Source: Rhizobiales bacterium 62-17
GTDB taxonomy: Bacteria; Pseudomonadota; Alphaproteobacteria; Rhizobiales; Beijerinckiaceae
Length of the DNA stretch: 64,000 bases
Reading direction: 5' to 3'
Assembly: GCA_001898965.1 (NCBI GenBank)
Contig: MKVW01000005.1
Coordinates: 124,001 to 188,000 of the forward strand
Within the stretch, counting starts at the first letter, position 1. Each line of letters opens with the position of its first letter. Shown piece by piece: positions 26,337 through 36,728 of this stretch. The translations under genes were made by a program, and so were the position numbers. The notes below the pieces were generated by a model. It saw only the letters and a list, made by a program, of their open reading frames with translations, was not told where the DNA came from and searched no databases.

Positions 26337-27485
26337 ATGTTTTCGGCGACGACGGACAAGGACGCGCCAGCGCCGCAGATCGATGAGCGCGATGGCGCGC
26401 GCATCGCGCTGTCGGGTCCGTGGACGGTCGAGCATGGCGCCGAGATGGAAGCGGCGGTGGCGCAGATCGGCCGCAAGGCGGCTGGCGACGCGGCCGTCAC
26501 CATCGATCTGTCTGGTGTCGAGCGCCTCGATACGGCGGGTGCCTGGCTGATCGACAGTGCCCGTCAGCAGCTCGATGCCAAGGGTGTGAAGGCGACGTTC
26601 GTCGGCGCCAAGCACGAACAGGAAATCCTGCTCAAGGAAGCGCATTATCGCACCTTCGACGAAGGCAAGCCCGGTAGTGCCCATGCGGTCGTCGATCTGC
26701 TCGTGGACATCGGCAAGAGCGTCGTCGGCGCCCTGAAGGATTTTTACGCGGGCTTCGCCTTCCTCGGCGAAGTGGTCAGCGCGCTGTTGCGCTCGCTGAC
26801 CCATCCGCGCCGGCTGCGCTTCACCTCCATCGTCTATCACATGGAGAATTTCGCGCTGCGGGCGCTGCCGATCATCCTGCTGATCAATTTCCTCGTCGGC
26901 TGCATCGTCGCGCAGCAAGGCATTTTCCAGTTCACGAAGTTTGGCGCGACGGCTTTCGTCGTCGATCTGATCGGCGTTCTCGTGCTGCGTGAACTGGCCG
27001 TGCTGCTCACCTCGATCATGATGGCCGGCCGTACCGGCTCGGCGATCACCGCCGAAATCGGTTCGATGAAAATGCGCGAGGAGATCGACGCGCTGAAGGT
27101 GATGGGGCTCGATCCGATCGAAGTGCTGGTTCTGCCACGGCTGATCGCACTGATCATCGCTTTGCCGCTGCTGACTTTTTTGGCCGATCTTTCGGCGATC
27201 TTCGGCGGCATGCTGATCGCTTGGGGCTATGGCGACCTGTCGCCGGAGATTTTCACCGCGCGCCTGCGCGAGGCGATCGGCATGAACACGTTCCTGGTCG
27301 GCCTCATCAAAGCCCCGTTCATGGCCTTGATGATCGGCATGATCGCGGTGATCGAGGGCTTCGCGGTGCAGGGCTCGGCCGAATCGCTCGGTCGTCAGGT
27401 GACGGGATCGGTGGTGAAATCGATCTTCATGGTGATTTTCGTCGACGGCCTGTTCGCCATGTTCTTCGCGGCCATCAGATATTGA
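26337..27485 (+). CDS. mlaE: Mla-type ABC permease with N-terminal STAS domain
   Basis: A 382-residue protein: residues about 15-110 are a STAS-like domain (GPWTVEHGAEMEAAVAQIG...TIDLSGVERLDTAGAWLIDSARQ) and 150-382 the MlaE permease with VGCIVAQQG, LRELAVLLTSIMMAGRTGSAITAEIGSMKMREEIDAL and VIEGFAVQGSAESLG. In Escherichia coli the STAS part is a separate protein (MlaB); here it is fused, as is common in alphaproteobacteria. Inner-membrane part of a phospholipid-trafficking ABC system keeping outer-membrane lipid asymmetry. First gene of a four-gene operon. Confidence 0.93.
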   Translation: MFSATTDKDAPAPQIDERDGARIALSGPWTVEHGAEMEAAVAQIGRKAAGDAAVTIDLSGVERLDTAGAWLIDSARQQLDAKGVKATFVGAKHEQEILLKEAHYRTFDEGKPGSAHAVVDLLVDIGKSVVGALKDFYAGFAFLGEVVSALLRSLTHPRRLRFTSIVYHMENFALRALPIILLINFLVGCIVAQQGIFQFTKFGATAFVVDLIGVLVLRELAVLLTSIMMAGRTGSAITAEIGSMKMREEIDALKVMGLDPIEVLVLPRLIALIIALPLLTFLADLSAIFGGMLIAWGYGDLSPEIFTARLREAIGMNTFLVGLIKAPFMALMIGMIAVIEGFAVQGSAESLGRQVTGSVVKSIFMVIFVDGLFAMFFAAIRY

Positions 27486-27493
27486 GTTCAGCT

Positions 27494-28333
27494 ATGGCGT
27501 CCGATCCCGCTCCGGTTCCGCAACAGTCCCAAACCCGGTCGCTCAAGACCGGCGAGACCGATGGGCAGAAGGGCCAGTTGGCGATCCGCGCCCGCGGCGT
27601 GACGGTGGGCTTCGGCGATCGCGTCATCCTCAACGGTCTCGATCTCGACGTGAAACGCGGTGAGGTTTTGGGTTTCGTCGGCGGTTCGGGCACCGGCAAA
27701 TCGGTGCTGACGCGCACGATCCTCGGCCTTATTCAGAAGCGTGCCGGCAAGATCGAAGTGTTCGACGAGGATCTTGATACGCTGACGCGCGACCAGCATC
27801 GGGCGCTGGAGCGGCGCTGGGGCGTGTTGTTCCAGCAAGGTGCCTTGTTTTCGGGCCTGTCGGTCTTGCAGAACATCCAGGTGCCGATGCGCGAATATCT
27901 GCACCTGTCGCACAAGCTGATGGACGAGCTGGCCATGCTCAAAATCGAGATGGTCGGCCTCAAGACCGATGCGGCCGACAAGATGCCGTCGGAACTCTCG
28001 GGCGGTATGATCAAGCGCGTGGCGCTGGCGCGCGCCTTGGCGCTCGATCCGGAACTGCTTTTTCTCGACGAACCGACATCGGGCCTCGATCCGATCGGTG
28101 CCGCCGATTTCGACGATCTGATCGCCACATTGCAGAAGACCCTGGGATTGACCGTTTTCATGGTCACTCACGATCTTGACAGTCTGTACTCAATTTGTGA
28201 CCGCATCGCCGCGCTCGCCGGCGGCAAGGTCGCGGCGGAAGGAACGATCCAGGAAATGCTGGAATCTGAACAACCTTGGGTTCGTTCCTATTTCCATGGC
28301 AAGCGCGCATCGCGGATGAACGGCGGTGCGTAA
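27494..28333 (+). CDS. mlaF: Mla-type ABC transporter ATPase
   Basis: A 279-residue ABC ATPase: Walker A GGSGTGKS at 63-70, Q-loop FQQGALFSGLSVLQN, signature SELSGGMIKRVALARALALDPELLFLDEPTSGLDP with Walker B, and His-switch MVTHDL. The FSGLSV/QNI segment is characteristic of MlaF/Ttg2A. It energises lipid movement through the MlaE permease. Starts 8 bases after mlaE. The first 28 residues are a polar tail not seen in E. coli. Confidence 0.93.
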   Translation: MASDPAPVPQQSQTRSLKTGETDGQKGQLAIRARGVTVGFGDRVILNGLDLDVKRGEVLGFVGGSGTGKSVLTRTILGLIQKRAGKIEVFDEDLDTLTRDQHRALERRWGVLFQQGALFSGLSVLQNIQVPMREYLHLSHKLMDELAMLKIEMVGLKTDAADKMPSELSGGMIKRVALARALALDPELLFLDEPTSGLDPIGAADFDDLIATLQKTLGLTVFMVTHDLDSLYSICDRIAALAGGKVAAEGTIQEMLESEQPWVRSYFHGKRASRMNGGA

Positions 28334-28396
28334 GACGTCCGGGTGTTGGAAACAGGGATCGGTATCTATATCCTCGCCGGTCCGGAGCGGAATGAG

Positions 28397-29443
28397 ATGG
28401 AAACCAGAGCCAACTATGCCCTGATCGGCCTGTTTACCCTGGCGGTGATCGCCGCGGGCTTCCTATTCGTGTTCTGGTTCTCGCGCGGCGCCACCTCCGA
28501 GGGGCGGTTGAGCTATGATGTCGCCTTCACGACATCGGTGTCGGGCCTGTCGCGTGGCTCGCAAGTTCTGTTCAACGGCGTGCGCGTCGGCGAGGTGCTG
28601 CGCGTCGATCTCGATCCTCAGGATCCCACCAAGGTCGTGGCGCGCATCTCGGTTAATCCGCGCGCCCCGGTGAAGACCGATACCGGCGCCCGGCTGGAAT
28701 ATCAGGGGCTCACTGGTGTCGCCGCCATCGCGCTCACCGGCGGCACGGCGACCTCCAAGCCGCTGGAGACCTCCGACAGCAATCCGGCCGTCATCAATGC
28801 TGAGCGGTCCGACTTCCAGAACATCGTCGAGACCGTGCAGCGGTTGTCGACCCGTCTCGACGGCATTCTCGACAAGGCCGACAAACTTTTCTCAGAAAAC
28901 AGCGGTTCCATCGCCAATACGGTCCATAACGTCGAGACCTTCTCCAAGGCGCTGGCCGACAATTCCGGCGGCGTGAAACAGTTCCTCTCCGCCATGTCTG
29001 ATGTCGGGGCGGCCATCGGGCCGCTGACCCGCTCCATCGACGAGCGCGTCAAGGCCATCGATCCGCAGCGCGTGAAGTCGATCGTCGCCAATGCCGACGA
29101 TATTTCCGCCAAGCTGAACAAGTCGGCCGATCAGGTCGACAAGGTGATGAACAGTCTCGCCGGCTTCTTCGGCAGCGACGAGGGCAAGGGCGCGATGACC
29201 GATATCGGCGAAGCCGCCCGGTCGATTCGCAAACTGGCCGACAATCTCAATGTCCGCACCAAGGACCTGGCCGCCAATCTCAACCGTTTCAGCGGCGCGG
29301 GCTTGCGTCAGTACGAGGCTCTGGCCGCGGATGGCCGCAAGACCCTGGACGAGCTGAACCGGACGCTGCGCTCCCTGGAACGCAATCCGCAGCAGCTCAT
29401 TTTCGGCCCCAAACCGTCCATTCCCGAATATAGCGGTCGCTGA
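28397..29443 (+). CDS. mlaD: MCE-domain lipid-binding protein (MlaD-type)
   Basis: A 348-residue protein anchored by one N-terminal helix (YALIGLFTLAVIAAGFLFVFWF), with the MCE domain at about 38-115 (YDVAFTTSVSGLSRGSQVLFNGVRVGEVLRVDL...LEYQGLTGVAAIALTGG). A long helical C-terminal region (120-320) carries repeated SERVDK-like amphipathic helices. MlaD forms a hexameric ring in the periplasm that passes lipids between the permease and outer-membrane carriers. ATG 28397 with upstream GGAG is preferred over 28343. Confidence 0.92.
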   Translation: METRANYALIGLFTLAVIAAGFLFVFWFSRGATSEGRLSYDVAFTTSVSGLSRGSQVLFNGVRVGEVLRVDLDPQDPTKVVARISVNPRAPVKTDTGARLEYQGLTGVAAIALTGGTATSKPLETSDSNPAVINAERSDFQNIVETVQRLSTRLDGILDKADKLFSENSGSIANTVHNVETFSKALADNSGGVKQFLSAMSDVGAAIGPLTRSIDERVKAIDPQRVKSIVANADDISAKLNKSADQVDKVMNSLAGFFGSDEGKGAMTDIGEAARSIRKLADNLNVRTKDLAANLNRFSGAGLRQYEALAADGRKTLDELNRTLRSLERNPQQLIFGPKPSIPEYSGR

Positions 29444-29523
29444 CCGACGATATTGCTTTCACCCCCGTTTGTTGCTTACTCCGGATTGATCGTATGAGTT
29501 TTGAAGAATCGCGGGAGACGCGT

Positions 29524-30153
29524 GTGTCAGGATCAGACGGTTCGTTTGCAGCGGGCGCAGGAGGGGCATCCTTCCGTCGATCCAGACGGTTCGCCATTGT
29601 TTCCCTCTTTGCCCTGGCGGTGGCCGCCTGTGGCGGCTCTCCTTCCGCCACGTTCGATCTGAGCCCGGCGTCTGGTGCGACGGGCCGGGCGGGGCGGGGC
29701 CAACTGGCCGTGTCCGAGCCCGTGGCGATCTCGCCCTTCGATTCCGAGCGCATCGTGGTGCGCGCCGGGGCGGGGGCCGACCAGGTGGCCTATCTGAAGG
29801 GCGCGCAATGGACCGACCGGCTGCCGCGCCTCTTGCAGTCGCGTCTGGTGCAGACCTTCGAAAATGGCCGGTTGCTGCGGGCGGTCGGCCGCTCGGGCGA
29901 TAAAATCGCCGCCGATTATTCGCTGACATCGGAAATCCGCCACTTCGAGATCGACGTGGCGACCAGCACGGCGGTGGTCGAAATTTCGGCCAAGCTGGTC
30001 AGCGAGCAAACGGGCCGCATCCGCGCGGCACGCATCTTCCGGGCGCAGGTGCCGGGTTCGGCGGCGGACGGGGCGCAGGCCTCGGTGGCGCTCGATGCGG
30101 CGCTGAGCCAGGTCATGCGCGAGATCGTGCGCTGGGCCTCGGCGGCGATGTAA
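29524..30153 (+). CDS. ABC-type transport auxiliary lipoprotein (PqiC/DUF330-like)
   Basis: A lipoprotein of about 209 residues with a positively charged leader (FRRSRRF), a hydrophobic helix and lipobox LAVAAC, then a beta-rich domain with ISPFDSERIVVRAG, YLKGAQWTDRLPRLLQSRLVQTFENG and YSLTSEIRHFEIDV. These are signatures of the ABC-type transport auxiliary component, which accompanies MCE systems. GTG 29524 is chosen because GGGAG lies six bases upstream; ATG 29494, 10 codons earlier, lacks a clear ribosome site. It probably replaces MlaA/MlaC-like partners, neither of which is in this operon. Confidence 0.85.
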   Translation: MSGSDGSFAAGAGGASFRRSRRFAIVSLFALAVAACGGSPSATFDLSPASGATGRAGRGQLAVSEPVAISPFDSERIVVRAGAGADQVAYLKGAQWTDRLPRLLQSRLVQTFENGRLLRAVGRSGDKIAADYSLTSEIRHFEIDVATSTAVVEISAKLVSEQTGRIRAARIFRAQVPGSAADGAQASVALDAALSQVMREIVRWASAAM

Positions 30154-30174: not shown

Positions 30175-30209
30175 AAAAAGGCGCAGCTTCCGCTGCGCCT
30201 TTTTGTTTT
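30175..30209. terminator. Bidirectional terminator between Mla operon and GPR-like gene
   Basis: Perfect 13-bp stem AAAAAGGCGCAGC / GCTGCGCCTTTTT with TTCC loop, T-rich on both strands; lies between the convergent stops at 30153 and 30226. Confidence 0.92.
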
Positions 30210-30225
30210 GGTCGGGCCTAGGGCC

Positions 30226-33200
30226 TCAGATCGCTTCGTAGCGCTCCGAGGCATGGGCGAACATCGTATAGACCTTGCCCGTGTCGGAGGTGAGGTAAGA
30301 GCGGGTCATCGTGCCGTCGCGATCGTCGCGGCCGACTTCGGTGAGCAGACGCTCGAACTCCTGCATGTAGCGATCCACCGTCTCGTGGAAATCCCGGTCG
30401 TCGCGATAGCGGCGGCGGATTTCGTCGAACGTCTGCTGGCCGGCGGCCGTATAGAGCCGGCGCGAGAAGATGTTCTGATCGCCCCGGTAGTAGCGATCCC
30501 AGAGGCTGGCGACCGCGTCATGGTCGACCATCCGCGCCACGTCATGGGAGATGGCGTCGAGCGAGTCGGCCGGGCGCTGCGGGATGCGGGGCGCCGGGGC
30601 CGGTGCGGCTGGACGAGCGGCCGGTGCCGGGGTCGGAGCGGGCGTCTCGTCGCGGGAGGCGCGGGCGAGCAGGTCCGACAGCCAGCCGGTGTTGTTGCCA
30701 CGGTTTTCGGCGGCGGGCGCAGCCGGACGGGCCGGGGCCGGCGGCGTCACCGTGGTGGCCGCTTGGCTCGGACGCGGGCGCGGGGCCGGCTCTTCACGCG
30801 GGGTCGGCGCGGCGGGGGCTGGAGCCGACGGGCGCGGCAGGGTCGGGCGCGTCGTTTCCATCCGCATGGGCTCGGTGCGGGCTGCCGGAGCCGGCTCAGC
30901 CGGGCGGGCCGCCGGCTCGGCGGCGCGACGCGGTTCGGCGATGTCATAGGCGCGGCCCGAACGGGTGACGATGTCAGTCAGTTCGTTGAGCGCCTTGATC
31001 TGCTCGGCGATGACACGGCGCATGGCCGAGGTCTGTTCGGCGGCCTCACGCGGCAGTTCGAGCGCGCCACGCTTGAGTTCCTCGCGGGTGCTGTTGATCT
31101 CGCGCTGGATCTCGGAGGCCATGTTGCGCATCTGGCCGGTGGCTTCCTTGAAGCGCTCGATCGACGAACCGAAGATGTTGCCCATCTCCGTATTGGCCTG
31201 TTCGTAGGCGGCGCGCAGCGCAGCGGCGGTGCGCTCGCGCTCCTTGCCGGTGGTGTCGCGCACCTGTTCGAACTGCTGGCCAATGAGATTGGTGACAGCC
31301 TGGGTCTCGTTGTTGAGCAGCGCGCCGATTTCGCGGGCACGGAACTCGGCCTTCTTGAACGCTTCCTCGACCAGCGAGGTGAAGGAGCGGGTGACCGCAT
31401 CGAAATCGTCGGTGCGGGTGTGGACCATGTGGAGCAGATGGTCGAGCGCCTTCTGGCGGCTCTCCAGCGTCTGATCGAGCTGGAGCTGCGTGCGCGCCAG
31501 TTCGCCGGCGCTGGCCGCCAGATCCGTGTTCTGCTTGTCGAGGCGGGTGGCGAGCTGGTCGGCGTTCTCCATGGTCTGGGCCGCCGAATTGTTCAGCGTC
31601 ATGACCTGGGTGGAGATCGTCGCCAGGGCGGTCTGGAATTCGCGCACGCGGTTGGTGAGCGCGCTTTCGACCGTGCTGAGGTTCTCGCCGGCATTGCCGA
31701 GGATGTTGTCGAGCGAGCCATTGGCCTTCGACAGGGCGTTGAGCACCGTCGACATCTCGCTCTTGATCTTGTCGCTGGCGTTGACCAGAGACGCGATGGA
31801 GCCGCTGGCGCTGGCTTCGATGACCGAGCGCAGGCCCGTCGACGAACGGTCGATCGCATCGGCGATCTGCACCTGGCGTTCGTTGAGGCCATCGATGATG
31901 GCGGCGCCGCGCTGGTCGATCGTCATGCTGACCAGTTCGCCGGCTTCCGACACCTGGCGGGCGATCTCGCTGCCGCGGGCCGAGAGCAATTCGACCAGCA
32001 TCGGACCCTTGCTGTCGAACAGCGTGTGCAGTTCGGTGCTGCGGCCCGAGAGCGTCTCGTGCAGATCCTTGGCGCGTTCGGCGAGCAGTTCGTTGATCTC
32101 GCGGACGCGGGCGGCCAGGCTTTCGTCGACGACGCGCGGATCGAGCGCGGCGTTGATTTCCTTGGCGCCTTCGGAGACGACACGGGCCACTTCGAGGGCG
32201 TTGCGGGCCAGCGTCTCGTTGATGGCGCGGGCGCGCGCATCGAGGCTGGTGTCGATCTTGGTGATGATGCCTTCGAGCGTGCCACTGACTTGCATCGACT
32301 TCGCCGTCGCCTTGTCTTCATAGGCGCGGATCTGCTGATCGAGGGCGGCGACGATTTCGTTGGTGCGGCGCGAGGCCAGTTCGTCGAACGACTTGGTGCG
32401 TTCGTCGAGGCCGGTCGACAGTTCGGCGAGACGCAGTTGCGCCATGGCGCCAAGCGCATCGGTGCCCGTTTGCAGCTGGGCCACCAGATCCTGCGTGCGG
32501 GCGTGGGCGAGCTGTTCCAGGCTGCGGGTGGCGGCCTCGATCTGCTCGACGATGTGATAGGTGCGGCTCTGCGCGACCTCTTCGAGAGCGGCCGTGCTCG
32601 ATTGCAGTTGCACGGTCATATCGCCGATGCGGGTGCGAGCCACTTCGTCGAGCGCGCGCGTGGTCGCTTCGATGCGTTCGACGATGTCGCGCGCATGGTT
32701 CTGCGTGACCTGTTCGAGCGCGCTGGTGCTCGACATCAGCTGCGAGGTGAGCTCGCCGATGCGGGTCTGGGCGACGCCGTCGAGGGCGCGGGTCGAGGCT
32801 TCGATCCGCTCGACGATGTCGCGGGTGTGGCTCTGGGCGAACTGTTCGAGCGCGCCAGTGCTGGATTGCAGCTGCGAGGCGAATTCGCCGGTGCTGGATT
32901 GCAACTGCGAGGTGAGTTCGCCGATGCCGGTCTGCAACTGCGAGGTGAGTTCGCCGATGCGGGTCTGGGCCACTTCGTCGAGCGCGCGGGTCGAGGCTTC
33001 GATGCGTTCGACGATGTCGCGGGTGTGGTCCTGGGCCACCTGTTCGAGCGCGCTGGTGCTCGACAGCAGGTTTTCCCGCATCTGGCCGATGCGCGATTGC
33101 GCCACTTCGTCCAGGCTGCGCGCCGTCGTCTCGATCCGCTCCAGAATGCCACGGGTGTGGTTCTGGGCGACCTGTTCGAGAACGCTGGTGCTGCTCTCCA

Positions 33201-36051
33201 TCTGCTCCTTCATCTCGGTGATGCGGGTCTGAGCCACTTCATCGAGCGCGCGGGTGCTGGCGGTGAGCTGTGTCGTGATGTCGGCGATGCGACGTTCGGC
33301 GATCTGCTGGAAGGCGCGAGTGCCGAGCGCGATCTTCTGCACCGCTTCGGTCGTGCGCGTTTCGGTGACTTCGGCCAGCGTGCGCGTGTTGGCGTCGATC
33401 TGCGCCGACAGCTCGGTGGTGCGCTCCTGCGCCACGTCGGCGAAGGTGCGGATGTGCTGTTCGATGGCCTGCGCGAGCTGTTCGGCGCGGGCCGTGGCGC
33501 TGCTGTCGAACTCGCGCACCTTCTCGTCGAGCAGGTTGGCGGTTTCGTTGGCGCGTTGCGACAATTGCTCGGTGAAGGCGCCGGCGTGGCCGCTGAAGGC
33601 CGCCTCGACCGCCTGGAGCTTTTCGTTGACGACGCCGGTGAAGCGATCCGAATGATCGGCGATCTGGGTCGTCAGGTTGTTGCCGTGCGACAGAACCATG
33701 TGTTCGAAGGCACGCAGGCGTTCGACCAGGGCTTCGTTGATACGGTCGCCATGCATGCCGACGGCGGCAATGGATTCGGCGGCCGTGTTCATGAAGCGGG
33801 CATGCAGATCGTTGGTGTGGCCGTCGAGCTGGTCGCGCACCAAAGCCTGGTGCTGTTCGAGGCGGATGGCGATCTCGTTGCCGGCGTTGTGGAAGAGGTC
33901 GTAAGCGGCCTGGGTGCGGTCGCTGATGATCTGGCCCATGCGGTCGCCGGTGGTGGCCAGCGCCCGCTCAAGGGTGTTGCCGTTCACATTGACGGTTTCG
34001 TCAATGCGGCTGGCAGTGGATTCGAGCGTCGCGATGAGGTGGTCGCCGCGCGAGGAAATCTTGTCGCTGATCGACGCGCCGGTTTCCTCGATCCGTTCGG
34101 CGGCTTCCTTGCCGCGGATCGAAATGTCGAAGACGAGCGCTTCGCCGGTGGTGCGCAGGCGATGGTCGACGCCATTGAGCTGTTCCGACAGGGCGCCGGT
34201 CACCTGCTGCGAGGTTTCGCTGAGCTGGCGGGTGAACTGTTCGCCGGTCTGGGTCAGATGGCCCAGGATGTTGGCGGAATGTTCGCTGATCTGGCCGACG
34301 ATGGAGTCGCCAATATTGGCGATCGAGCTCGTCACCTGTTCGGAGGAATCGGCCAGGCGCTGGCTGACGCCGTCGCCGGTTTCGGTCAGGCGCGCGACGA
34401 CATTCTCGCCGTGGCTGCCGATGTGTTCGATGACCGAATGGACCAAAGTCGAAATGGTCTCGGTGATGTGCGTCGAGGAATCGGTCAGACGCTGGGTCAC
34501 GCCATCGCCGGTCTCGGCCAGGTTGGTGACGATCGAGGTGCCGTGGCTGTTGATGCGCTCGACGACGTTTTCGCCGAGCGTCGCCAGCGAGGTGGAAATC
34601 TGCTCGGAGGATTCCGTCAGACGGCGGGCCACGCCTTCGCCGGTGTCGGCGAGATTGGTGACGATCGAGGTGCCGTGGCTGTTGATGCGCTCGACAATGT
34701 CTTCGCCGAGCGTCGCCAGCGAATTGGAAATTCGATCCGAGGATTCGCTGAGGCGGTTGGAGACACCGTCGCCCGTGTCGGTGAGGCTGGTGACGATGTT
34801 ATTGCCGTGGGTGCCGATGCGTTCGACGATGTCGGAGCCGAGGCTTGCCAGCGAGGTGGAAATCTCGCTGGAGGCGGCGGTCAGCTTCTGGGTGACGTCG
34901 TCGCCGGTGCGGCCCAGGGTGAGATTGATTTCCTCGGCCTTGCCGCCGAGCGAATTGGTGACGCGGGAACCGGCTTCGTTGACCGCGTCGGCCATTTTCA
35001 TGCCGGCGGTTTCGAGTTCGCGCGCCAGGTTTTCATGTGCGCCTTCGATGGCGGAACGCACGCGCTCGGCATTGCCGACGATGGCTTCGCGCTCGGAGGC
35101 GAGTTCGTCGACGAGAGCGCGGACGCGGCGCTCGTTGTCGGCGTGCGAGCGTTCGAGATTGGCGACCTCGGAGCGCATCACAGTTTCAAGTTCGCTGGCG
35201 CGCGCCAGCGCCCGCTCGATGCCATCGCCCATCGACGAGACTTCGCGGCGGATCGCCTGCGACAGGGTCACAACATGTTCGGCGGCGAAGGTCTCAGGCT
35301 GCGCGAGGCGGATCACCACCTGCGACATGGCATTGGCGGTGAGGCGCATCTCCTGCGCCCGGCGCACCAAGACGCTGGCGATCAGGAAGAACGCGATGGG
35401 GCCGACCGTCGCCAACGCGATCATCGCGGCGTGAACGGCCGACAGGTTGGCGAGTTCGCCGGCGCGCGACAGAGAATAGAGATAGGCCGCGGCGCCGCCG
35501 AGCCAGGCGAGCGAAGCGAGGATGGCCAAAGCAAGCGGCGTGCGGCTCGGGCGTGTCTGCAGCGATTGCAGGATCTGGCCGACCGATTGGCGATCGTCAT
35601 TGGCGGGCGCGCGTTGCGGCGAGGGGTCTGGTGTAGTCGCGCGCGGGGCCGGAGCTTCGCTGGCGGCCGGTGCGGGACGCGGCGGCGTGATTGCAATCTT
35701 CGGCGCTTCCGTCTTCGGCGGCTCGGCTTTCGGAGCCTCGACCTTGGGCGCTTCGCTTTTCTGTGCCTCGATTTTCGGGGCTTCCACCTTGGGTGGTTCT
35801 TTCGCCTTGTCCTTGGCCGGATCGGCCGTGAGTTCGTTGTCGCTGACCGAAGGCAGACGCGGCTGCGGCGTCATATCGAGGGCGAGATTGCCCACGGTCG
35901 CCGGCCCTTGCGGGGCCTGGGGATCGGGAGGCGTTTTGCTATCCTGGGGCTTGGCCGCCGTGTTTTCCGGTTCAAGACCGAGGTTCAGGGCCTGCTCGAT
36001 CGCGGACAGGGCTGCCGCTGCCGGGTCCTGGGCCTGGGGTTTCGTGGCCAT
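30226..36051 (-). CDS. Giant repetitive membrane protein, growth pole ring (GPR/RgsE)-like
   Basis: A 1,941-residue protein. The first 170 residues are disordered and Pro/Lys/Glu-rich, including five or so APK-V/I-E pentads. Two helices follow (about 173-193 and 206-229), leaving nearly all the rest on one side of the inner membrane. From about 240 to 1,620 the chain is almost wholly helical, with 44-residue repeats of two kinds. A Pro/Ala linker then leads to a compact end domain with HDVARMVDHDAVASLWDRYYRGDQ and TFDEIRRRYRDDRDF. Size and layout match the apolipoprotein-like GPR of Agrobacterium and RgsE of Sinorhizobium, which organise polar growth. ATG 36051 follows AGAGG. Confidence 0.82.
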   Translation of the reverse strand: MATKPQAQDPAAAALSAIEQALNLGLEPENTAAKPQDSKTPPDPQAPQGPATVGNLALDMTPQPRLPSVSDNELTADPAKDKAKEPPKVEAPKIEAQKSEAPKVEAPKAEPPKTEAPKIAITPPRPAPAASEAPAPRATTPDPSPQRAPANDDRQSVGQILQSLQTRPSRTPLALAILASLAWLGGAAAYLYSLSRAGELANLSAVHAAMIALATVGPIAFFLIASVLVRRAQEMRLTANAMSQVVIRLAQPETFAAEHVVTLSQAIRREVSSMGDGIERALARASELETVMRSEVANLERSHADNERRVRALVDELASEREAIVGNAERVRSAIEGAHENLARELETAGMKMADAVNEAGSRVTNSLGGKAEEINLTLGRTGDDVTQKLTAASSEISTSLASLGSDIVERIGTHGNNIVTSLTDTGDGVSNRLSESSDRISNSLATLGEDIVERINSHGTSIVTNLADTGEGVARRLTESSEQISTSLATLGENVVERINSHGTSIVTNLAETGDGVTQRLTDSSTHITETISTLVHSVIEHIGSHGENVVARLTETGDGVSQRLADSSEQVTSSIANIGDSIVGQISEHSANILGHLTQTGEQFTRQLSETSQQVTGALSEQLNGVDHRLRTTGEALVFDISIRGKEAAERIEETGASISDKISSRGDHLIATLESTASRIDETVNVNGNTLERALATTGDRMGQIISDRTQAAYDLFHNAGNEIAIRLEQHQALVRDQLDGHTNDLHARFMNTAAESIAAVGMHGDRINEALVERLRAFEHMVLSHGNNLTTQIADHSDRFTGVVNEKLQAVEAAFSGHAGAFTEQLSQRANETANLLDEKVREFDSSATARAEQLAQAIEQHIRTFADVAQERTTELSAQIDANTRTLAEVTETRTTEAVQKIALGTRAFQQIAERRIADITTQLTASTRALDEVAQTRITEMKEQMESSTSVLEQVAQNHTRGILERIETTARSLDEVAQSRIGQMRENLLSSTSALEQVAQDHTRDIVERIEASTRALDEVAQTRIGELTSQLQTGIGELTSQLQSSTGEFASQLQSSTGALEQFAQSHTRDIVERIEASTRALDGVAQTRIGELTSQLMSSTSALEQVTQNHARDIVERIEATTRALDEVARTRIGDMTVQLQSSTAALEEVAQSRTYHIVEQIEAATRSLEQLAHARTQDLVAQLQTGTDALGAMAQLRLAELSTGLDERTKSFDELASRRTNEIVAALDQQIRAYEDKATAKSMQVSGTLEGIITKIDTSLDARARAINETLARNALEVARVVSEGAKEINAALDPRVVDESLAARVREINELLAERAKDLHETLSGRSTELHTLFDSKGPMLVELLSARGSEIARQVSEAGELVSMTIDQRGAAIIDGLNERQVQIADAIDRSSTGLRSVIEASASGSIASLVNASDKIKSEMSTVLNALSKANGSLDNILGNAGENLSTVESALTNRVREFQTALATISTQVMTLNNSAAQTMENADQLATRLDKQNTDLAASAGELARTQLQLDQTLESRQKALDHLLHMVHTRTDDFDAVTRSFTSLVEEAFKKAEFRAREIGALLNNETQAVTNLIGQQFEQVRDTTGKERERTAAALRAAYEQANTEMGNIFGSSIERFKEATGQMRNMASEIQREINSTREELKRGALELPREAAEQTSAMRRVIAEQIKALNELTDIVTRSGRAYDIAEPRRAAEPAARPAEPAPAARTEPMRMETTRPTLPRPSAPAPAAPTPREEPAPRPRPSQAATTVTPPAPARPAAPAAENRGNNTGWLSDLLARASRDETPAPTPAPAARPAAPAPAPRIPQRPADSLDAISHDVARMVDHDAVASLWDRYYRGDQNIFSRRLYTAAGQQTFDEIRRRYRDDRDFHETVDRYMQEFERLLTEVGRDDRDGTMTRSYLTSDTGKVYTMFAHASERYEAI
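32475..33201 (-). repeat. 44-residue (132-bp) protein repeats, type B, within GPR-like gene
   Basis: Consecutive units of the type STSALEQVAQxHTRDIVERI...TRALDEVAQTRIGEL recur with a 44-residue spacing, about five to six times. 44 is four times 11, the hendecad period of long straight coiled coils. Units differ mostly at polar positions. Confidence 0.85.
32854..32952 (-). repeat. Three 33-bp tandem units inside the GPR-like gene
   Basis: Three near-identical 33-bp units (32854-32886, 32887-32919, 32920-32952) encode 11-residue blocks: STGEFASQLQS-type and GIGELTSQLQ-type. They interrupt the 44-residue register with extra hendecads and remain in frame. Confidence 0.9.
34195..34865 (-). repeat. 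44-residue (132-bp) protein repeats, type A, within GPR-like gene
   Basis: Units such as SLATLGEDIVERINSHGTSIV followed by TNLADTGEGVARRLTESSEQ recur five times with exact 132-bp spacing; for example GATCGAGGTGCCGTGGCTGT begins at 34531 and again at 34663. Two neighbouring units are nearly identical at DNA level, a sign of recent duplication or gene conversion. Confidence 0.88.
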
Positions 36052-36142
36052 TCTGCTGCCTCTCGCTTCGCATCCAAACGGCTTTCCAGCCGTGCGCATG
36101 CGCAAGGTTCACCGATGGGCCTCGGAACTCTACGCAAACGCA

Positions 36143-36228
36143 TTAACCAATTGGTAATCTACCGCGCCGGGGCACGGAATGAAACCAGTGCGGTCACGGA
36201 ATGGTAAACAGCGTTAACGCGCCTTTTA
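36143..36228. promoter_or_regulatory. Two CtrA-like sites between the GPR-like and Hpt genes
   Basis: TTAA-CCAATTG-GTAA (36143-36157) and TTAA-CGCGCCT-TTTA (36214-36228) each match seven of the eight defined bases of the CtrA consensus TTAA-N7-TTAA. They lie in the 272-base divergent region. The first also contains the palindrome ACCAATTGGT. CtrA binding is inferred. Confidence 0.45.
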
Positions 36229-36323
36229 CTTACCTGGCTAACACTTGCCATGATTGGTGCCGATATATCCGTCAGGCTGGCCCCGGAGCACCATCGGGAA
36301 TGGTTCGGCCAAAGCGATTTCAG

Positions 36324-36728
36324 ATGGATAGTGCCATGAATGTTGCAGCGCTGCGTAAACCGGAGATCGGTGTGGACCAGGGGGAAGGACGGCCGATCGA
36401 CCTTGTCCATCTGGCGCGCCAGACCCTCGGCGATCGGGCTCTCGAGGTCGAACTGCTGCAACTGTTCGATAAGCAGGCCGCCCAGATCATCACCCGTTTG
36501 GCAGGCGATACCGGCAACCCGGAGCGGCGCTGGCGGCAGGATCTGGCCCATACCCTCAAGGGTTCAGCCCGCGCGATCGGCGCCGGTCAGGTCGCCAATG
36601 CTGCGCAACACTATGAAAACGTTCTGGCTTCGACCCGCGATGAAGCCGAGATCACCACCGCGCGCGAGGCGCTGGTGACCGCCGTCGACCTCGCTCGGCA
36701 GGCGATTCGCCGCCTTCTGGCCGATTGA
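36324..36728 (+). CDS. Histidine phosphotransfer (Hpt) domain protein
   Basis: A protein of about 134 residues made of a single four-helix Hpt domain. The phosphorylatable His is H76 in LAHTLKGSARAIGAGQVA; preceding IDLVHLARQTLGDRALEVELLQLF is the usual first helix. Hpt proteins relay phosphate between receiver domains in multistep phosphorelays. No kinase is adjacent. ATG 36324 or 36336 are both possible; neither has a strong ribosome site. It is divergent from the GPR-like gene. Confidence 0.85.
   Translation: MDSAMNVAALRKPEIGVDQGEGRPIDLVHLARQTLGDRALEVELLQLFDKQAAQIITRLAGDTGNPERRWRQDLAHTLKGSARAIGAGQVANAAQHYENVLASTRDEAEITTAREALVTAVDLARQAIRRLLAD

Follow-up and report, generated by a model that had tools for sequence, protein, structure and literature searches.

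The 1,941-residue protein encoded in the window (the whole 64-kb stretch of DNA analysed here) is, by its sequence, an orthologue of the polar growth proteins GPR and RgsE, and its hendecad (11-residue) periodicity is confirmed. We suggest that it forms a hendecad coiled-coil rod that is anchored in the membrane and ends in a conserved helical domain, and that such rods likely serve as a scaffold for polar growth. Computation establishes the family membership, the periodicity and the continuity of its register, the conserved ends, and a variation in rod length that is quantised by helical turns. Published work on the family, in the parts available to us, describes polar localisation, a ring of six foci and round cells on loss (PMC8262873, PMC7327166). 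GPR/RgsE is among the leading candidates for the scaffold of unipolar growth in a large bacterial order. The family itself is already known, and we offer the hendecad rod as a sequence-based description that replaces "apolipoprotein domains".

Identity and layout of the protein

The coding sequence lies on the minus strand and runs from an ATG at 36051, which is the assumed start, to a stop at 30226; a TTG at 36105 is the earliest start codon in this open frame. The protein is laid out as follows.

30226-36051, minus strand: GPR/RgsE orthologue, 1,941 aa (translation, spread of the C-terminal domain, alignment to the Sinorhizobium protein)
35356-35541, minus strand: two predicted membrane helices, residues 171-192 and 203-232 (hydropathy)
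35002-35355, minus strand: N anchor after the membrane hairpin, residues 233-350, conserved (alignment to relatives)
32143-35028, minus strand: in-register hendecad rod, residues 342-1303 (rows of 11, phase analysis)
34237-34896, minus strand: kind A 44-residue repeats, residues 386-605 (autocorrelation, 132-bp DNA array)
32389-33312, minus strand: kind B 44/22-residue repeats, residues 914-1221 (autocorrelation, 132-bp and 33-bp arrays)
31732-32139, minus strand: register shift at Pro1305 and second hendecad stretch to about residue 1440 (rows of 11, phase)
30934-31491, minus strand: C anchor of the rod, residues 1521-1706, conserved (alignment to relatives)
30568-30933, minus strand: Pro-rich linker, residues 1707-1828 (sequence)
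30229-30567, minus strand: C-terminal helical domain, residues 1829-1941, conserved (142 of 150 genomes of the order; all helical in an AF2 model)

A preliminary description of this DNA had assigned the protein to the GPR/RgsE family, and the assignment is borne out by the ends of the protein, which align with a 2,089-aa Sinorhizobium protein at 41-56% identity. Specifically, 92 of 189 positions are identical over residues 161-350 (membrane region and N anchor), 56 of 135 over the C anchor and 62 of 110 over the C-terminal domain, and the long helical alignment has 24% identity. We took this S. meliloti protein to be RgsE by its organism, its family and the published length of 2,089 aa, as given in the part of PMC7327166 available. 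The 113-residue C-terminal domain is matched in 142 of 150 genomes of the order, at one place in each except for a single genome with two, and is thus order-wide and essentially single copy. Because of the anchor and C-terminal identities to the S. meliloti protein and this order-wide domain, we identify the gene from its sequence as a GPR/RgsE orthologue. Among four loci from a scan of named genomes, the nearest is from Roseiarcaceae (L002; 63% in the best segment). Relations to ZorA, SpiroCoCo and similar proteins were dropped, since the five NCBIfam matches are all below their cut-offs and were taken as generic helix similarity. The 2,089-aa protein comes from a record deposited as S. meliloti plasmid pSymB (L144, CP090106.1); the fetched stretch carries folP and cytochrome bc1 genes besides this rgsE-like gene, which is annotated as a kinesin.

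For family statistics, 100 regions were fetched from the 142 matching genomes and one (L133) was dropped for want of a C-terminal tblastn match; the remaining 99 loci, together with proteins P0001-P0003, give 102 proteins. Parts of both anchors are recognisable throughout this set. Columns 20-90 of the N anchor can be aligned in 102 of 102 relatives (lowest score 141), as can the second half of the C anchor, for example columns 125-155 (lowest score 110), and the first half of the C anchor, except for its first columns, can be aligned in 86-100 of the 102. At the level of the class, a profile built from five C-terminal domains matches 112 of 289 genomes, among them members of the window's own family. 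The open frames of these 112 matches have 205 to 2,752 residues, and outside the order, too, some reach about 2,000 residues or more.

The two N-terminal helices of the preliminary description correspond to the hydrophobic segments in the list above, where AF2 places helices at residues 172-196 and 206-248 with low confidence. Its model of residues 160-900 is nearly all helix, with the two hydrophobic helices followed by helices of 261, 162 and 206 residues; it comes from a single-chain predictor and, with a mean pLDDT of 50.9, is too low in confidence to rely on. The C-terminal domain is modelled as all helical (mean pLDDT 67.6) and has no match in the PDB at E 0.001 or better, for which reason a known fold was dropped.

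An antisense frame of 1,999 codons (30208-36207, plus strand) mirrors the whole gene in codon register. The gene has no TTA, CTA or TCA codon, with 11.9 expected from ten window frames; the P of 5e-6 for this absence assumes independent codons, an assumption that the repeats violate. In L002, the in-register antisense frame (register by arithmetic) is split into 1,135, 408 and 309 codons. Because it is broken in this closest relative, the long frame is ruled out as a gene and probably reflects codon bias.

Hendecad register and rod length

The preliminary description had claimed periods of 11 and 44 residues, and the evidence for both turned out stronger than the claim. Autocorrelation of the whole protein under BLOSUM scoring peaks far over shuffles at both lags, with z values of 27.8 at lag 44, 21.9 at lag 22, 15.9 at lag 11 and 14.9 at lag 33 (maximum in 300 shuffles, 4.1). 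For V/I/L/M/F in residues 266-1690, the Fourier spectrum has its maximum at 3.668 residues, with a power of 84 against at most 13 in shuffles. At a period of 11/3, the phase stays between -56 and +2 degrees in windows centred from 331 to 1277, and this near-constant hydrophobic phase means that there is no register shift over ~86 hendecads (~950 residues). Residues 342 to ~1303 fall into a single register when laid out in rows of 11, with V/I/L/M/F at positions 1 and 5 in 100% of hendecads in residues 361-640 and in 95% and 56%, respectively, in residues 861-1290. Both of the two kinds of 44-residue repeat described earlier are visible. In kind A (~386-605), hendecad position 9 is mostly Gly or Ser; in kind B (~914-1221), LxxVA hendecads alternate with I/LxxxL hendecads. 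Tandem DNA arrays of 132 bp at 34475-34874 and 32524-32894 overlap kinds A and B, and an array of 33 bp at 32859-32960 lies within the kind B region. From Pro1305 on, the hendecad register is shifted. Within residues 1291-1690, the 44-residue period was not found (z 1.2), lag 11 persists (z 8.8), and the local helical period wanders between 3.54 and 3.725. The protein thus has the 11/3 hydrophobic periodicity in a kept register that is expected of a hendecad coiled coil, and a long continuous helix, as proposed earlier, is the most economical reading of its hendecad/44 periodicity.

These properties extend to the family. With rod limits set by simple rules (the end of the hydrophobic segments and the first Pro-rich window), the 102 rods have 475-2,404 residues with a median of 1,453; as an alpha helix rises 0.15 nm per residue, this would correspond to ~71-361 nm. 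The lag-11 z exceeds 4 and is higher than that of lag 7 in every one of the 102 rods. The hydrophobic period is 3.64-3.69 in 80 rods; the remaining 22 all have periods of at most 3.64, and 18 of them have fewer than 880 residues. Rods below 880 residues show a period of 3.556-3.627, not 3.667, in 17 of 22 cases. Across the 923 of 1,371 windows passing our register criterion, V/I/L/M/F occupy position 1 in 88% and position 5 in 94%, partly by selection because these two positions define the criterion. At positions unused in the selection, the same windows have A/G/S/T in 74% and D/E in 1% (position 9), and K/R in 37% and D/E in 3% (position 8). The stripe of strong hydrophobicity takes up two of the 11 positions. 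Every one of the 102 rods has a net negative charge (median -6.2 per 100 residues), the median Lys content is 2.2%, and there are 19 Trp in a total of 140,543 rod residues.

To compare lengths, we measured each rod from a fixed column in one anchor to a fixed column in the other; one rod lacks an anchor column, leaving 101 rods, of which 94 were placed in 47 pairs that are disjoint yet still related. The members of a pair differ by 0 residues in eight cases, by 1 in one and by 8 or more in 38. Among these 38 differences, 13 are multiples of 11 (3.5 expected, p 1.8e-5), and 29 are 0, 4 or 7 mod 11, a class chosen after the residues were known. Independently of this choice, a blind scan of periods from 2.2 to 60 peaks at 3.670 residues (R 0.736; at most 0.604 in 2,000 jittered controls), in agreement with the independently measured hydrophobic period. 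Neither the N-terminal tail (3 of 28) nor the linker (3 of 21) has an excess of differences divisible by 11. Four species of one genus have 1,292, 1,413, 1,589 and 1,655 residues between the anchors, and all differences among them are multiples of 11. In a pair with its own period of 3.607, the difference of 36 residues amounts to 9.98 turns, and whole helical turns rather than elevens therefore seem to be conserved in rod length; a difference of 40 residues at a period of 3.655 is 10.94 turns, and one of 62 at 3.658 is 16.95 turns. Nine of the 38 pairs fall outside the 0, 4 or 7 class, among them the window protein and L002, the nearest relative identified, which differ by 124 residues or 33.80 turns. 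A difference of 153 residues (10 mod 11) separates the proteins of Sinorhizobium and Shinella, a comparison outside the 38 pairs. Aligned gaps of at least 3 residues in 19 related pairs are 0 mod 11 in 27 of 38 cases, 7 in seven, 4 in two and 3 in two, with no other class; by construction, alignments with several gaps tend to place these in register, and some proteins sit in two of the 19 pairs.

Such lengths could also arise by mutation alone, through recombination among 11-based repeats and no selection on the helical face. This would compete with the length part of our explanation and not with the rod. Consistent with it, 17 of 36 gaps of at least 8 residues resemble tandem copies of the neighbouring block, and the window itself contains the 132- and 33-bp DNA arrays. 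However, the other 19 gaps are less than 50% identical to their neighbours, and blocks that are not multiples of 11 (36, 40 and 62 residues) still lie near whole turns. We regard a purely mutational origin as a serious possibility but lean against it; as judged from the sequences, the quantised lengths agree with slippage of repeats as well as with selection for a continuous face, and the two are not fully separable.

The same length data bear on the proposal, made in the preliminary description, that a nearly straight coiled coil sets a fixed distance or ring radius at the growing pole. A molecular ruler of this kind would be in line with the single register over ~950 residues and with the identical anchored length in eight of the 47 pairs. 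As a rule for the family it fails because rods span 475-2,404 residues in 102 relatives, and even within one genus four species range from 1,292 to 1,655; a family-wide fixed ruler is thus ruled out. Since lengths vary between species, a fixed length could hold within a species only. We therefore consider it quite improbable that a fixed length sets one ring radius or distance, though length might be set species by species. The natural length series of ~71-361 nm, including four lengths within one genus, offers a direct way of asking whether rod length sets ring size.

Apolipoprotein match and gene neighbourhood

The whole protein matches the Pfam family Apolipoprotein A1/A4/E (PF01442) at 1.5e-56 with 191.5 bits (cut-off 90) in eight stretches, so that the protein shares with GPR/RgsE a very large size, a mainly helical make-up and multiple matches to this family. 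Single stretches peak at 52.4 bits, below the cut-off, and none in the genome passes it; sub-cut-off matches also occur in seven of 14 unrelated control genomes. PDB sequence searches match ApoA-IV, at best with 1.7e-8. Apolipoproteins A1/A4/E have amphipathic helices based on 11 residues. We permuted the residues of 40 hendecads (440 residues) inside each of the 11 columns. Both of two column-shuffled copies still pass the cut-off (161.3 and 100.4 bits; original, 140.4), and one fully shuffled copy matched no family. Because column shuffling keeps the score and full shuffling abolishes it, the match needs hendecad composition only. The likeness to Apolipoprotein A1/A4/E thus consists in a whole-protein profile score over the cut-off, with no similarity beyond periodic composition by the column-shuffle control, and gives no evidence for common descent. 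Apolipoprotein ancestry is ruled out as the meaning of the Pfam match, and the "apolipoprotein similarity" already published for GPR (PMC8262873, in the part available) requires no common ancestry. This result bears on descent, and contact of the rod with lipid would be compatible with it.

Three features of the neighbourhood recur at other loci.

36201-36728, plus strand: divergent Hpt-domain gene, start codon assumed (Pfam Hpt, 1.6e-8)
26337-30153, plus strand: convergent STAS-MlaE / ABC / MlaD / ABC_trans_aux operon, Mpc-type lipid transport (Pfam)
36143-36157, plus strand: one-mismatch CtrA-like site in the promoter region between the divergent genes (motif match)

A divergent Hpt gene lies at most 1.3 kb from gpr in 74 of 99 loci, and an Hpt match is found somewhere in the stretch in 77, of which 69 have an HxLKG-like motif. 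The gene also adjoins the S. meliloti and Sphingomonas copies, and its product is a possible phosphorelay partner of GPR. A ferredoxin-type gene is present in the stretch in 94 of 99 loci. At the 3' side of gpr, a convergent MlaE/F/D operon with an auxiliary lipoprotein, whose gene content matches the Brucella MpcEFDA lipid transporter, is found in the window and in L002. A short distant relative (L005) has the same operon type with one gene between, where MlaE/F/D were recognised by eye and only the lipoprotein was profile-scanned. Some Mpc part is near gpr in 45 of 99 loci and none was found in the other 54, counts that depend on fetched stretches of limited length; the neighbours scanned in L003 also have none. 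In 38 of 99 loci, the gene of MlaD type lies 3' of gpr in convergent orientation; four loci have it 3' of gpr on the same strand, and two on the 5' side. The sequence TTAA-N7-TTAA, which we take to be a CtrA-like motif, occurs close to the start of gpr in 20 of 97 loci, several of these being the same site in close relatives. The mean in shuffles, which average over an AT-richer gap, is 1.4 (maximum 6 in 100), and among 753 other starts, most of which are not known to lie between genes, three have the motif. A second site in the window lies at 36214-36228, and the three matches in 64 kb are within chance. Together, these links hint at connections of gpr to the cell cycle and to lipids.

The Agrobacterium authors proposed a lipid role for the apolipoprotein-like domains (PMC8262873, in the part available). 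In its full form, GPR would be an apolipoprotein-like lipid handler with helices lying on membrane or lipid and sorting polar lipids together with the neighbouring transport operon. The PF01442 score, the matches to ApoA-IV and the convergent Mpc-type operon, found in part at almost half of the loci, point in this direction. By contrast, hendecad composition suffices for the Pfam score, no single stretch exceeds the cut-off, and half of the unrelated control genomes also have sub-cut-off matches. Moreover, the stripe of two positions is narrow, the rods are uniformly acidic and poor in Lys and Trp, and no Mpc part was found in 54 of 99 loci or among the L003 neighbours scanned. A lipid handler therefore appears unlikely to us.

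Proposed mechanism and known systems

In the scaffold model that we favour, the membrane hairpin would fix the N-terminus in the inner membrane. The following ~1,470 residues would form one long cytoplasmic alpha-helical rod of ~220 nm at 0.15 nm per residue, along which a narrow hydrophobic stripe would run in hendecad register. Rods would associate via this stripe, probably in coiled coils that are right-handed or almost straight, and the Pro-rich linker and the conserved helical end domain may act as a docking or assembly head. Such rods may build the ring. Rod length would evolve by gain and loss of blocks that leave the stripe on the same face. In a more far-reaching version, GPR rods would be species-tuned spacers that change by whole turns only and set the geometry of the ring or growth zone, and a gpr-hpt CtrA module would couple growth to a phosphorelay and to Mpc lipid supply. 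We put this forward as a speculation that is more probably wrong than right by a wide measure.

The explanation of the apolipoprotein match, the range of rod lengths, the turn-quantised differences and the recurrent neighbourhood are new here. In the GPR/RgsE literature searched, the 2019 PNAS GPR paper aside, we found neither the hendecad architecture nor this explanation of the match nor turn-quantised lengths, and in the main text of the 2021 GPR paper, as available, the words "repeat", "periodic" and "hendecad" have 0 occurrences (PMC8262873). According to the Conclusions of the same paper, a helix of 1,700 residues would reach 600 nm; a rise of 0.15 nm per residue gives ~255 nm. At ~255 nm rather than 600 nm, the argument for a folded-up protein, as it stands in the available part of that paper, is weaker than given.

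By its published description, GPR of Agrobacterium tumefaciens (2,115 aa) resembles the window protein in having two membrane segments, a long helical part and a Pro-rich region, and its C-terminus is required for function (PMC8262873, in the part available). The S. meliloti Ak57 protein that we took as RgsE has, like the window protein, two N-terminal hydrophobic segments, homologous anchors and the C-terminal domain, and its autocorrelation at lags 11, 22 and 44 has z values of 14.6, 19.7 and 15.6. A divergent Hpt gene and a (2Fe-2S) gene adjoin this copy as well. It differs in having 29- and 40-residue lags with a period of 3.654, and in the fetched stretch no Mpc-type gene is annotated within ~10 kb downstream. 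Two short relatives, L004 (705 aa) and the Sphingomonas protein (774 aa), share the membrane hairpin, the helical rod and the C-terminal domain. Because their rods have 350 and 537 residues, with a period of ~3.57 and without the 44-residue repeat, the long hendecad rod may have developed from a shorter one.
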